Shown here: positions 7,513-41,209 of the stretch, in pieces
Position numbering within the stretch: position 1 is the stretch's first letter
Layout: every line of letters begins with the position of its first letter
Virus record (IMG/VR): IMGVR_UViG_3300023278_002909
Location: 1 to 41,209 of that record
Source of the DNA: a virus
DNA length: 41,209 bases
Reading direction: 5' to 3' (one strand)
Program-made: the position numbers and the translations under genes
Notes under the pieces: model-generated
Seen by the model: the letters and a program-made list of their open reading frames with translations, nothing else
Database searches by the model: none
Told to the model about the DNA's origin: nothing

Positions 7513-7689
7513 ATGTTAATATTAACGCGACGAATATCAGAATCGATAATTATTAATGATAATATAAATGTGCGTGTTTTAGGGGTTAAAGGCAATCAAG
7601 TTAGGTTAGGAATTGAGGCCCCTCCTGACATTCCAGTCCATCGGGAGGAGATTCAGGAAAGGATTTTGCGTGAAAAATGCATACTATAA
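7513..7689 (+). CDS. csrA: CsrA-family RNA-binding translational regulator
   Basis: 58 residues. N-terminus [16 protein letters not shown], middle [18 protein letters not shown] and [10 protein letters not shown] match bacterial CsrA (about 61 residues) almost throughout. The RNA-contacting residues known for E. coli CsrA, Leu4, Arg6 and Arg44, are all present. CsrA dimers bind GGA in hairpin loops, usually over ribosome sites, and change translation and mRNA stability. The AGAGGAGGATTAATA leader contains GGA next to the start, so autoregulation is possible. Start 2 bp after the helicase stop. Only the short C-terminal tail differs from cellular CsrA. A phage copy could redirect host metabolism or time phage genes. 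Confidence 0.93.
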
Positions 7690-24627: not shown

Positions 24628-24644
24628 ACGCCCTCAGTTAGCCG

Positions 24645-24715
24645 CTAATTAGGTGAGATTCGAACTCACATTCCCCAGCATAAAAGCAGCGGTTCTACCA
24701 TTGAATTACTAATTG
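24645..24715 (-). tRNA. tRNA-like gene with mismatched anticodon arm
   Basis: 71 nt with canonical lengths: acceptor arms CAATTAG/CTAATTA (outermost pair C:A mismatched), D arm ATTC-AATGGTA-GAAC, T arm GTGAG-TTCGAAT-CTCAC (perfect). The anticodon stem pairs poorly (GCTGC with CTGGG). By position the anticodon would be UUA (reads the UAA stop); one base shifted, CUUUUAU gives UUU (Lys). CCA is not encoded. It lies in a 110-bp gap between virion genes. It may be a decaying tRNA, an odd functional one or a mimic. Confidence 0.6.
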
Positions 24716-36422: not shown

Positions 36423-36743
36423 TTAAGCCTCCTCTTTTCCTTCTACGCCACGTTCAACACGATCAGCAGTGCGCTTGTCTAGCCACATAAGCGCCTCTTC
36501 TAATTTAGTTATTGCTATTGCGTTTTCCCTGCAGGGGAACGCCTGCGCTTGGAACGATTTTAAGCGTATAAGGCATACCATCAACAAGTCCTCAATCTGC
36601 GCACCATTATGCCCACACTCAAGGACGGTGCCTGTTTGTACTGGAATTTCAAACATTTGGTCTCCATAAGACAGTAAGTAAAGCAAACTAGGCTCCTCAT
36701 CTGGAAACCTTCTTAAATAAGTACTCATTTTACATTTAGACAT
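36423..36743 (-). CDS. Tad1-like cyclic-nucleotide sponge (anti-Thoeris/CBASS)
   Basis: 106 residues from ATG 36743 (AGAGGTTTTT before it; frame extends to 36821 without a ribosome site). The core VQTGTVLECGHNGAQIEDLL, then RLKSFQAQAFPCRENAIAI and TKLEEALMWLDKRTADRVER with GVEG is the Tad1/Acb2 hairpin-domain pattern. Phe64, Asn74 and Arg91 have the same spacing as the ligand-binding Phe82, Asn92, Arg109 I recall for Tad1. Tad1 traps gcADPR and related signals. First gene of the leftward arm. Confidence 0.8.
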   Translation of the reverse strand: MSKCKMSTYLRRFPDEEPSLLYLLSYGDQMFEIPVQTGTVLECGHNGAQIEDLLMVCLIRLKSFQAQAFPCRENAIAITKLEEALMWLDKRTADRVERGVEGKEEA

Positions 36744-36846
36744 AAAAACCTCTTTTTTCTCTATAATACGCATAAAAAGATTAAAAAGCCATCCGAAAGA
36801 GGTCAAAGCTAACAAGAACACGCACTTTTCCGTAAAGATCAGGATA

Positions 36847-36864
36847 TTGTTTTGTACAAAACAA
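36847..36864. promoter_or_regulatory. 18-bp perfect palindrome beside origin
   Basis: TTGTTTTGTACAAAACAA, also at 10425-10442 before the nuclease gene. Here it lies between the first leftward gene and the origin repeats, 5 bp from a candidate rightward promoter. Confidence 0.6.
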
Positions 36865-36869
36865 AATGC

Positions 36870-36898
36870 TTGACGCTTCTTGTAGCATGTATTAATAT
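36870..36898 (+). promoter_or_regulatory. Candidate promoter reading into the origin
   Basis: TTGACG (36870-36875), 17-bp spacer, TAATAT (36893-36898). It starts just beside the palindrome and would transcribe across the iterons. The -10 matches four of six bases. Could prime or activate replication. Confidence 0.35.
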
Positions 36899-36947
36899 TT
36901 GAGGTTGGCTAGCAATTAGCGTATTTAGCCCCTTTGTACATAATTTT

Positions 36948-37506
36948 ACTTGGCACGCGGTTTGCTTTATAGATCATGAGCTTACAGTAAAAGGGGGTCG
37001 AAAATGGCAAAGTCACTTGGCACGCGGTTTGCTTTATAAATCATAAGCTTACAGAATCACTCTTGATAAGTTTTTGATAAGTAAAGAAAAATCACTTGGC
37101 ACGCGGTTTGCTTTAAAAATCAACCAGTTAAAAATTGGTACCAAGTGACGCCAATTCACTTGGCACGCGTTTCCTATTATAAATCAAAAAGTTGCAACTC
37201 GTACCAAGCAAAACCCCCGTTTTCAAAACTCTCTATATACACCTCTATTACATATATTGTATTGCATAGATGCATATTATATTGTATGCAACACCTACCG
37301 TTTTTATATATAACTCTTTATATATTTGCTTGGTATACTTGGTATATAGAGAGTAAAGTAATGATTTATAAAGCAAACCGCGTGCCTATGTCGTCAAGTC
37401 ACTTGGCACAACATTTTCGGTTATCTCGTTGATTTATAAAGCAGACCGCGTGCCAAGCATCATAAACAACTTGGCACGCGGTTTGCTTTATAAATCATGA
37501 ACTTAT
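36948..37506. repeat. Iteron array and A+T-rich core: probable replication origin
   Basis: A repeat with core TTGGCACGCGGTTTGCTTTA plus TAAATCAT occurs directly at 36950, 37017, 37096, 37471 (and degenerate at 37160), inverted at 37369 and 37437, with a half copy at 37403. Between direct and inverted groups is an A+T-rich stretch (37220-37360) with a TTGCATAGATGCAT palindrome at 37262. Such direct plus inverted repeats around an easily melted core are typical iteron origins. No Rep initiator was recognised, so the binding protein is unknown. Confidence 0.7.
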
Positions 37507-37536
37507 GATTTGTTCAAATTCAAAGCGGGATATTTC

Positions 37537-37652
37537 TTGCATCTATGCACATTGCACGGATGCAAAATGCAAGAAAACAAACTGCTCCGCTTGCATAAAA
37601 GCAAACTTTTTTAACCAGAAAACTTGCATTCATGCAAAATTAATGGTGTAAT
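37537..37652 (+). promoter_or_regulatory. Cluster of four operators with early rightward promoter
   Basis: Palindromes at 37537-37550 (TTGCATCTATGCAC), 37552-37565 (TTGCACGGATGCAA), 37591-37604 (TTGCATAAAAGCAA) and 37624-37637 (TTGCATTCATGCAA). The last supplies a -35-like TTGCAT, 17 bp before TGTAAT (37647-37652), a 5/6 match to -10. The start near 37659 lies before the gene at 37687. A multi-site operator resembles a lambda-like control region. Confidence 0.6.
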
Positions 37653-37686
37653 AGCGGTATATCACACACTACACGGAGATAAAATA

Positions 37687-38136
37687 ATGCCAGAAATGAC
37701 CTCATATCATGAAAACGTACAAAAAATAAACCAAAAGCGAGAGCGTGTTAAAAAAGAGTTAGATAATCGGATGCAACTATTAATGAATGCCTGGCATTCG
37801 GCGGGGTCTAGGGATCGGGCGGATTTAAGCAGGCAGGAGTCGAATTTATTGCGAGCTTATAAAAAACTAATCTCAATTACTAGACCTAGGGCTACCGTTA
37901 TTGATACTGGTGTTAATGAAGCGCGCTTTTCTAACTTTAATCTTGCGGTTACTGAGTTTGATCAAGCTTATAATTCGCTTATTCTAGGCGGGGAGGGGGA
38001 CTCGAGCGCCCATACTCGGTACACACTTGAAAAAAGTTTTTATTTATCACGTTTAGCATTGGAGCGTTTGTTTAATGAAGAACTAGACGTGCGATTGTTG
38101 CAATTCAGGAATATGAAGAACTTCAACGGTGCATGA
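37687..38136 (+). CDS. Unknown early protein, coiled-coil-like
   Basis: 149 residues; ATG follows ACACGGAGATAAAATA. Basic N-terminal helix (QKINQKRERVKKELDNRMQL), later helices with aligned heptads (SFYLSRLALERLFNEEL). No family recognised. First gene of the rightward arm after the operator cluster, so likely immediate-early. Confidence 0.65.
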   Translation: MPEMTSYHENVQKINQKRERVKKELDNRMQLLMNAWHSAGSRDRADLSRQESNLLRAYKKLISITRPRATVIDTGVNEARFSNFNLAVTEFDQAYNSLILGGEGDSSAHTRYTLEKSFYLSRLALERLFNEELDVRLLQFRNMKNFNGA

Positions 38137-38986: not shown

Positions 38987-39577
38987 ATGAATCACATTAT
39001 ATTCGATTATATTGCACACAATGACACTAAACGTTTGAATGACTTGTTGCAAACCACCACTGAGAGGGGTTTATTGAACATATTTAATGCAGATGGCGCA
39101 ACACCCTTACAAACAGCCATCAAATATGAGTATAAATGCACCGTCCAGTTCCTGCTTAAAAAGGGCGCCGATGTCAATTTCATGGACTGTATCGGCGCTA
39201 ATGCGTTGCATTATGCAGCTCGATGTCAGTTTATCAACGTCATTGAAGAGCTGTTACAAGCGGGTGCCGCGATAACATGTGACCAGCGAAAGAGTAGTCC
39301 ACTACATTATGCAGCGTATCGTAATCACCACCATATCTTAGGGCAGATTTTGTACTCGGAGCGCCATGCATCCTTCCCGCATCTGGATGGTCAAAATTTA
39401 TCTTTAAACACTCCTTTGCATCTGGCGGTTAGAGGTGGTCACTATGAATGCGCCAAAGTTTTAATAAATACAGGAGCTAAATATAATCTGTATAATATCT
39501 GCGGCTTAACTGCTATTGATATTGCAAAATCTTTGAGCGATAAGAGGCTGCTGAAATTGTTTGACGAGGGTGCTTGA
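38987..39577 (+). CDS. Ankyrin-repeat protein
   Basis: 196 residues; CAAGGAAATTTTAT before ATG. About five ankyrin units of roughly 33 residues: DGATPLQTAIKYEYKCTVQF, GANALHYAARCQFINVIEEL, KSSPLHYAAYRNHHHILGQI, NTPLHLAVRGGHYECAKVLI, GLTAIDIAKSLSDKRLL. Ankyrins mediate protein-protein contacts. No signal peptide. The promoter for the next gene lies in its last codons. It may target a host protein; in animal-associated hosts phage ankyrins have been linked to eukaryotic interaction. Confidence 0.88.
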   Translation: MNHIIFDYIAHNDTKRLNDLLQTTTERGLLNIFNADGATPLQTAIKYEYKCTVQFLLKKGADVNFMDCIGANALHYAARCQFINVIEELLQAGAAITCDQRKSSPLHYAAYRNHHHILGQILYSERHASFPHLDGQNLSLNTPLHLAVRGGHYECAKVLINTGAKYNLYNICGLTAIDIAKSLSDKRLLKLFDEGA

Positions 39578-39605
39578 GCAGATTATAATACCTGCATGAA
39601 TGCAA
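39561..39605 (+). promoter_or_regulatory. Strong promoter with operator at the start site of the HTH gene
   Basis: TTGACG (39561-39566), exactly 17 bp, TATAAT (39584-39589): near-consensus. The expected +1 is at 39596, the A of the ATG of the HTH gene, so the mRNA would be leaderless. Palindrome CTGCATGAATGCAA (39592-39605) lies over +1 and would block the promoter. Confidence 0.7.
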
Positions 39606-39796
39606 AATATATACACCCCCGAAAGATGTTGGAGCATTTAAAAAAAAATAACTGGAGCATGGATAGTGTAGCAAAATATTTAAACGTTAATGTGACAACT
39701 GTTTATCGACAATTTTATCCTAATGCCCCAGAAATGCTGGCTAAAACATATATGAGGTTAAGACAACTGTATTTTAAACATTTAACCAAGGAGTGA
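39596..39796 (+). CDS. Small helix-turn-helix protein, candidate repressor of the palindrome regulon
   Basis: 66 residues. MLEHLKKNNWSMDSVAKYLN followed by VNVTTVYRQF is a helix-turn-helix (recognition helix VTTVYRQF). No ribosome site before 39596, consistent with leaderless translation; ATG 39626 is a second in-frame start. The overlap of promoter, operator and ATG suggests it may repress itself. Dimer binding to TTGCAYNNATGCAA sites is inferred. It lies between the two ankyrin genes. Confidence 0.65.
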   Translation: MNAKYIHPRKMLEHLKKNNWSMDSVAKYLNVNVTTVYRQFYPNAPEMLAKTYMRLRQLYFKHLTKE

Positions 39797-39804
39797 CGTT
39801 TATT

Positions 39805-40290
39805 ATGCGAGCCATAAACATTATAAAAACATTTCAATCAGGTAAATTTTCGTCAATTAGAGCGCTCCTAAAATTGGGGTATGACATTAATCGACCGATA
39901 TCGCGTATCGGGTACCCGTTGTTACACGTTGCACAATTTAAAAGAAACAAAGTACTGAATCTACTACTTCATTTTCGTTGTAATATCTTTGTTACCAATG
40001 AGCGTCACCAAAATATTTTGCATGTTGCATCGATCAATGAAAACACTAAAGGCGCTATTTTATTTCTACGCAATGTGCATAAAACGGACGCATTAAAACT
40101 TCTATCAGCAAAAGACGATCAAGGTCGGACGCCACTTCATTATAGCGTTAAAAATTGTGACTATGCGCTGTCTAAATATTTCATTAAAAACGGAGCATCT
40201 TTGCATACTCTTGACAGTCATGGGCAGTCCCCTAGATTTTATGCGCGGATGAACATGTGCGAACCAGTATTAAGACTATTACAAGATTAA
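39805..40290 (+). CDS. Second ankyrin-repeat protein
   Basis: 161 residues from ATG 39805 (CAAGGAGTGACGTTTATT before it; GTG 39793 in frame). Ankyrin-like units: FSSIRALLKLGYDIN, GYPLLHVAQFKRNKVLNLLL, HQNILHVASINENTKGAILF, GRTPLHYSVKNCDYALSKYF, GQSPRFYARMNMCEPVLRLL. Somewhat degenerate. The Prim-Pol starts 2 bp after it. Confidence 0.85.
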   Translation: MRAINIIKTFQSGKFSSIRALLKLGYDINRPISRIGYPLLHVAQFKRNKVLNLLLHFRCNIFVTNERHQNILHVASINENTKGAILFLRNVHKTDALKLLSAKDDQGRTPLHYSVKNCDYALSKYFIKNGASLHTLDSHGQSPRFYARMNMCEPVLRLLQD

Positions 40291-40291
40291 A

Positions 40292-41209
40292 ATGCCTTTT
40301 AATCACTATTTTAAATTGCGCAATTCCGGTTTTCAGCCGGTAGGTTGGAATAATACCTCAATCCCTCACTCGGAAGCCGCCCTCTCTTCCTCTCTTCGAG
40401 CTCACAATGCTCATCAACCATTGGGAATTATGCTTACGTCGACTGAATTAGTAATCGATGTTGATCCACGCAATGGCGGTTGCAGCAGCTTGAAACAGAT
40501 AAGATCGATTACCGGCATGAAAGTCGCTTTACTAACTGCTCCAACTATTATCACAGGGCGCCAAGGTCAACATTACTATTTTACGAAACCTGGAAATCTT
40601 GATATAAAAAAGCGGTTAAAAAAGTTTCCAGGCATCGATTTTTTATCGAAAAACAGTTATGTGGTTGCGCCGTTATCTGATCTTCCCTATATCTATTACG
40701 CGCCCAAAAAAGACGTAGATTATACAAATAAAAAATTAGGGCATTATCGCTACGCTTCGTTATCGTCATCCATAGAATCTGCTGAAGATGCTCCAATGGC
40801 GTTGCTAGAACTGATTTCAACAGACTCTATGAAAAAGAGTAGTGCTGATAATAAAAATAGTGCGTATTACACCTGTGATGAATTGAAAACGTTGCTAAGC
40901 AAATTGCCAGTTAACGACTTTCGGGAGTATGCTAAGTGGCGCGATCTTTTATTTGCAGTAAAAGCCGCCGCGGGTGAGACAGCCTTTACCGTGTTTTTAG
41001 AATGGTGTTTACAAGATGAAAAGTATACAGCGGACGCTGATAAAATATATTTAATATGGCAAAATGCAAAAACGAAGGGTGGGATAACTCACAAGTCATT
41101 AAATTTCCTATGTCGATCTTATGGGTTTAACCCGATGAGCTTGCGGCCATTGAACGTCTTACAAACTGCTGAAAAAGATGACAAAGGGGAGCCACAAGCC
41201 GACACAAGG
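40292..41209 (+). CDS. Primase-polymerase (Prim-Pol) half of the primase-helicase (partial at right edge)
   Basis: 306 codons with no stop before the window edge. AEP-type catalytic motifs: DVD (Asp56, Asp58 in LVIDVDPRNGG), G-x-H (RQGQHYYF, His94) and GIDFLSKNSYVVAP (Asp116). The C-terminal stretch WQNAKTKGGITHKSLNFLC matches primase C-terminal domains. Starts 2 bp after the ankyrin stop without a ribosome site, so coupling is likely. It should lay primers for the phage fork and joins the SF3 helicase at the left edge. Confidence 0.9.
   Translation, partial: MPFNHYFKLRNSGFQPVGWNNTSIPHSEAALSSSLRAHNAHQPLGIMLTSTELVIDVDPRNGGCSSLKQIRSITGMKVALLTAPTIITGRQGQHYYFTKPGNLDIKKRLKKFPGIDFLSKNSYVVAPLSDLPYIYYAPKKDVDYTNKKLGHYRYASLSSSIESAEDAPMALLELISTDSMKKSSADNKNSAYYTCDELKTLLSKLPVNDFREYAKWRDLLFAVKAAAGETAFTVFLEWCLQDEKYTADADKIYLIWQNAKTKGGITHKSLNFLCRSYGFNPMSLRPLNVLQTAEKDDKGEPQADTR

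Follow-up and report, generated by a model that had tools for sequence, protein, structure and literature searches.

The window analysed here is the whole of a viral record from IMG/VR (IMGVR_UViG_3300023278_002909), 41,209 nucleotides in length. The genes of this phage are arranged on two sides of a divergent junction (36822-37686). An Acb2/Tad1-like gene, a ParB-methyltransferase gene, TerS, TerL and the structural genes are situated on the left of the junction, while the early genes and the replication genes are situated on the right. A primase-helicase of the Prim-Pol/PriCT_2/DUF5906 type is also encoded, divided between the contig ends and starting at 40292. Since this gene extends off both ends, the record probably represents an almost complete genome in permuted form. 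The phage possesses a CsrA gene (7513-7689, plus strand). Among plasmid records, its product is closest to a homologue from a Legionella adelaidensis plasmid (71% identity), followed closely by homologues from Xanthomonas and Rhodanobacter. On the basis of these homologues a gammaproteobacterial host is likely, and no more is claimed. The early region contains two ankyrin-repeat proteins (38987-39577 and 39793-40290, both plus strand), and a tRNA-Ile with anticodon TAT is located within the structural operon (24644-24715, minus strand). The phage collection contained no close DNA relative, and the closest relative found, G391, has a TerL which is 50% identical.

The junction possesses six intact copies of a 28-bp unit, CTTGGCACGCGGTTTGCTTTATAAATCA, along with one decayed copy. 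Four intact copies are directed rightward and two leftward, and together the units flank an A+T-rich core where the early and late operons diverge. The initial annotation had placed long repeats to either side of an A+T-rich core, and this arrangement was confirmed, with the core at about 37220-37360. The features of the junction and its two bordering genes are as follows.

36423-36821, minus strand: first leftward ORF, with an Acb2/Tad1 hairpin domain (PF24729, profile match above the gathering score)
36847-36864, no strand: TTGTTTTGTACAAAACAA, a perfect palindrome lying about 100 bp ahead of copy 1, candidate operator or enhancer (palindrome)
36949-36976, plus strand: copy 1, sigma-54 type -24/-12 element (pattern match and matrix score)
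37016-37043, plus strand: copy 2, sigma-54 type element (pattern match and matrix score)
37095-37122, plus strand: copy 3, sigma-54 type element (pattern match and matrix score)
37139-37145, minus strand: CTTGGYA half-site without a -12 box (sequence scan)
37159-37186, plus strand: decayed copy, in which the -24 half and TATAAATCA are retained and the GC of the -12 box is gone
37202-37208, minus strand: CTTGGYA half-site, -12 box at the correct spacing absent (sequence scan)
37220-37360, no strand: A+T-rich core, 68-78% A+T, edged by the inverted repeat ACTCTCTATATAC / GTATATAGAGAGT
37262-37275, no strand: TTGCATNNATGCAA-type palindrome (palindrome search)
37329-37344, plus strand: at the margin of the A+T-rich core, a pair of CTTGGTA half-sites 9 bp apart
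37362-37389, minus strand: copy 4, sigma-54 type element with a weaker -24 box (pattern match and matrix score)
37402-37408, plus strand: CTTGGCA half-site without a -12 box (sequence scan)
37430-37457, minus strand: copy 5, sigma-54 type element (pattern match and matrix score)
37470-37497, plus strand: copy 6, sigma-54 type element (pattern match and matrix score)
37537-37637, no strand: four TTGCATNNATGCAA-type palindromes (37537, 37552, 37591 and 37624), operator or enhancer candidates
37687-38136, plus strand: first rightward early ORF, of no known family

In the whole record, only these six copies were found with up to three mismatches to the consensus, and the backward control pattern gave none. 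The longest exact direct repeat of the region is 30 bp, against a maximum of 13 bp over 100 shuffles. Conservation between the copies drops sharply to background beyond both ends of the unit, and positions -28 to -1 form the conserved block when the C of the conserved GC is numbered -12. The repeats had been described earlier as a G+C-rich core with a flanking sequence; the repeats themselves were found, while the separate flank was not, as the TTTATAAATCA half belongs to the 28-bp unit. The distances from copy to copy (67, 79, 64 and 311 bp) are irregular and show no regular helix-related spacing of the iteron kind. A search of IMG/VR with the 27-bp repeat returned no other copy.

The 28-bp unit contains TTGGCACG-CGGT-TTGCT, which is the -24/-12 element of a sigma-54 promoter according to the Barrios et al. 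consensus applied in PMC3844500 and PMC4591121. Four copies match YTGGCACGN4TTGCW without mismatch and two with one mismatch, and the GG and GC are 12 bp apart in all six (TGGCAC-N5-TTGCW). A first-order Markov simulation gave an expectation of 0.03 sites at one mismatch or fewer per 41 kb. All genome positions were scored with a matrix derived from 24 sites bound by sigma-54 in Salmonella ChIP (PMC3844500). The six copies occupied ranks 1 to 6: four scored 21.3 and the others 20.0 and 15.6, ahead of 15.3 for the next position. The median score of the Salmonella sites is 19.7, and five of the six copies lie above it. Judged by how many bases are specified, the chance that a random 28-bp repeat contains the sigma-54 consensus is about one in a million. 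The label of iteron given to the unit by the initial annotation overlooks this consensus promoter element.

The copies resemble the bacterial sigma-54 promoters of the Salmonella set (PMC3844500) in the -24/-12 consensus, in the 12-bp spacing and in scores within the Salmonella range. They differ in being clustered, six in 550 bp and in both orientations. They differ also in that the window gave no enhancer site for any known activator: palindromes are present, but none is of the NtrC type or any other known type, and the palindrome search found no Fur site in the window either. Several features argue against the sigma-54 reading, among them this lack of a known enhancer site and the absence of such elements from the nearest relatives. 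The N4 spacer (CGGT) and the positions from -11 to -1 are conserved more than sigma-54 requires, and three of the four rightward sites are directed into the leftward sites.

The junction is also rich in other elements. It contains 11 CTTGGYA elements in 866 bp, where 0.09 would be expected, and five of them have no -12 box. These five extra half-sites are not explained by sigma-54 and suggest another DNA-binding protein. The TTGCATNNATGCAA palindrome is present five times in the junction and again at 1290, 34455, 34721 and 39592, several of these near gene starts, and it is likely the operator of a phage or host regulator. A small Fis-type HTH protein encoded at 39596-39796 (weak match) is a candidate binder of this palindrome. 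On the minus strand, inverted CTTGG half-sites form a terminator-like hairpin at 37138-37166, which would end the leftward transcripts of both leftward sigma-54 sites. The Acb2/Tad1 gene, of the anti-CBASS/Thoeris type, directly adjoins the array.

Arrays of sigma-54 sites were also found in other uncultured phages. IMG/VR was searched with a tandem pattern of two sigma-54 sites 40-70 bp apart; at least 120 stretches matched, while the reversed pattern used as control matched none. Among 392 distinct sites, the positions left free by the pattern were occupied by T or C before TGGCACG in 83%, by A or G after TGGCACG in 74% and by A or T after TTGC in 84%, and these preferences resemble bacterial sigma-54 logos. 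In 95 non-redundant loci, the spacing of tandem neighbours peaks at 25-28 bp, and head-to-head pairs mostly have gaps of 2 or 5 bp. A comparison set of viral loci, related to the window by their capsid protein and otherwise unselected, had 2.8 sites per Mb and no cluster. A separate 16-mer count (39 matches) was discounted, as about half of it came from one recurring sequence with the context TTCNGG...CTTGGCACGCGGTTTGCGTTC in many loci, probably coding.

No other protein family is nearly as widely shared by these loci as TerL, which is present in 55 of the 120 array loci listed, and the TerL of the window belongs to this family. In 40 of the 41 loci with a recognisable TerL nearby, TerL is transcribed away from the array, so the arrays lie upstream of the terminase. 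Individual sites are mostly directed away from TerL (125 of 173), with a majority away in 30 loci and toward in 10. The cluster of the window occupies the same position relative to the TerL operon, with four sites directed away from the terminase and two toward it. Having several consensus sites upstream of a TerL operon, it belongs with the phage arrays (loci L053-L172), which are likewise mostly away-facing; many of those are denser (25-28 bp), have free N4 spacers and in some cases NtrC or Fur sites, whereas the window copies share all 28 bp. The cluster is best described as a group of sigma-54 promoter elements in the control region of a phage, belonging to a recurrent class of phage arrays. 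Some arrays face, as their first genes, ArdC-like antirestriction genes (downstream in L131; 16806-17657 in L174), identified only by visual inspection. A motif-binding phage protein shared by the loci was considered and rejected, as the families after TerL reach only about 20 of the 120 array loci listed. Packaging repeats (pac or cos) bound by TerS were ruled out, as unrelated phages share the sigma-54 logo itself.

A pair pattern with a gap of 10-40 was absent from 369 bacterial genomes; as this sample is small, only about 1 Gb, and the gap differs from that of the IMG/VR pattern, confinement of the arrays to phages is not claimed. A 21-bp pattern had a single match in GTDB genomes, in a Lysobacteraceae MAG, which was read as a single convergent site. 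Obolenskvirus LZ35, PhiPLPE and MSW-3 have no such array. The nearest relatives of the window possess no sigma-54 sites, so the array was either gained in its lineage or lost in the others.

Palindromes near the arrays were searched after masking the sigma-54 sites. Two spaced palindromes were frequent in the array regions, TGCACCA-N3-TGGTGCA, which we take to be the NtrC enhancer, and ATGAGAAT-N-ATTCTCAT, presumably the Fur box. At one mismatch or fewer, the two motifs are about 19 times denser near the arrays than in the rest of the same loci, with NtrC present in only 4 of 93 loci and Fur in only 8 of 93. Perfect or near-perfect NtrC or Fur palindromes lie in or beside the arrays of, for example, L089, L105, L160 and L166, and of L068, L072, L093, L128 and L154. 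NtrC sites adjoining sigma-54 sites would be expected of functional promoters, while L128, with several Fur-like sites in the one locus, would also be compatible with a sponge. Another palindrome, AGTGAGNNCTCACT, is shared by five array regions.

Taken together, the repeats probably form a group of sites, with the form of promoters, to which the host RNA polymerase with sigma-54 (RpoN) binds. At the four rightward and two leftward sites of the early/late control region, this holoenzyme would give closed complexes, which a host enhancer-binding ATPase would then open, perhaps from a nearby palindrome. The rightward sites would serve the early operon, and the start of copy 6 is predicted near 37498, about 190 bp ahead of the first early ORF. 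For the remaining arrays, a rough gene call gives a median distance from site to gene of 378, with quartiles of 188-860. The leftward sites would serve the operon which starts with the Acb2-like gene and continues with the methyltransferase and the terminase. Phage expression would in this manner track a stress or nutrient signal of the host. As genome replication multiplies the sites, RpoN may also be drawn off the host promoters.

An iteron-type origin, as proposed in the initial annotation, finds partial support and is somewhat unlikely. According to this reading, an initiator, most likely the Prim-Pol/PriCT_2/DUF5906 primase-helicase, binds the CTTGGYAC-type repeats and melts the A+T-rich core, and the sigma-54 match would be due to chance or to a second use. 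The anatomy supports it, as an A+T-rich core, possibly a melting region, has adjoining repeats in both orientations, and 5 of the 11 CTTGGYA elements have no -12 box. The relative G391 has a comparable core, whose motif CTCTATATTACACC resembles CTCTATATACACC of the window, and its repeat AGCGTAC, present in both orientations and intergenic in six of nine copies in 27 kb, lies beside a Prim-Pol/PriCT_2/DUF5906 gene. This repeat differs from that of the window and sits in the equivalent junction. The initial annotation found no recognised initiator, which is too strong given the primase-helicase of this phage, and primase-helicases of this kind initiate replication in some plasmids and satellites (P4 alpha, pRN1 ORF904). 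The resemblance to P4 alpha, from general knowledge, and to the pRN1 replication protein (PMC4234260) consists of an A+T-rich stretch, repeats and an element-encoded Prim-Pol/helicase, whereas the phage has 28-bp units, irregular spacing and a gene which is not adjacent. The consensus sigma-54 element, with the low estimated chance of such a match, argues against the origin, as do the irregular spacing, the absence of DnaA boxes from the window and the position of the primase gene, 2.6 kb from the repeats. The GC-skew check suggested earlier did place the minimum at the junction, but gene orientation changes at the same place. The origin and sigma-54 readings are compatible, and both can hold at once.

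It is rather doubtful that the sites act purely as a decoy, only binding RpoN or its holoenzyme and depleting RpoN at high phage copy number. Host functions that depend on RpoN, for example the phage-shock response, pili, flagella or nitrogen assimilation, would be shut off by such depletion. In other phages, sites spaced at 25-28 bp or placed head to head across gaps of 2-5 bp are too close to be used as promoters simultaneously, and no A+T enrichment follows the -12 box (0.47, compared with 0.50 for the loci). Most whole records checked have essentially one array per genome, and some arrays also have several Fur-like sites, which points in the same direction. The window sites, however, are mostly 64-79 bp apart, and their positions from -11 to -1 are conserved and A+T-rich, as in promoters that melt. 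The orientation bias away from the terminase and the NtrC sites beside arrays also suit promoters better. Operators, with the repeats and palindromes bound by a phage repressor or another regulator of divergent early and late transcription, are quite improbable: the location between divergent operons, the recurrence of TTGCATNNATGCAA palindromes, several near gene starts, and three TGTGCAN5TGCACA palindromes at the equivalent place in G391 are in their favor, but this reading suits the palindromes more than the 28-bp units, as the units are non-palindromic and of a known promoter class.

Phages are usually thought to rely on sigma-70 promoters, on their own sigma factors or on their own RNA polymerases. 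In the literature searched, with subscription journals and preprints outside its scope, no earlier report of phage sigma-54 arrays or decoys was found. As a broader and tentative proposal, which we hold to be doubtful as a whole, the sigma-54 arrays which many phages carry beside the terminase, some with NtrC or Fur sites, may be DNA sponges for RpoN and other global regulators, also tying phage expression to the nutrient state of the host. If true, the recurrent RpoN clusters would represent a new contact of infection with the nutrient, stress and envelope signalling of the host. They would predict the hosts and conditions favoring such phages, and the arrays yield a directly testable idea of DNA decoys.
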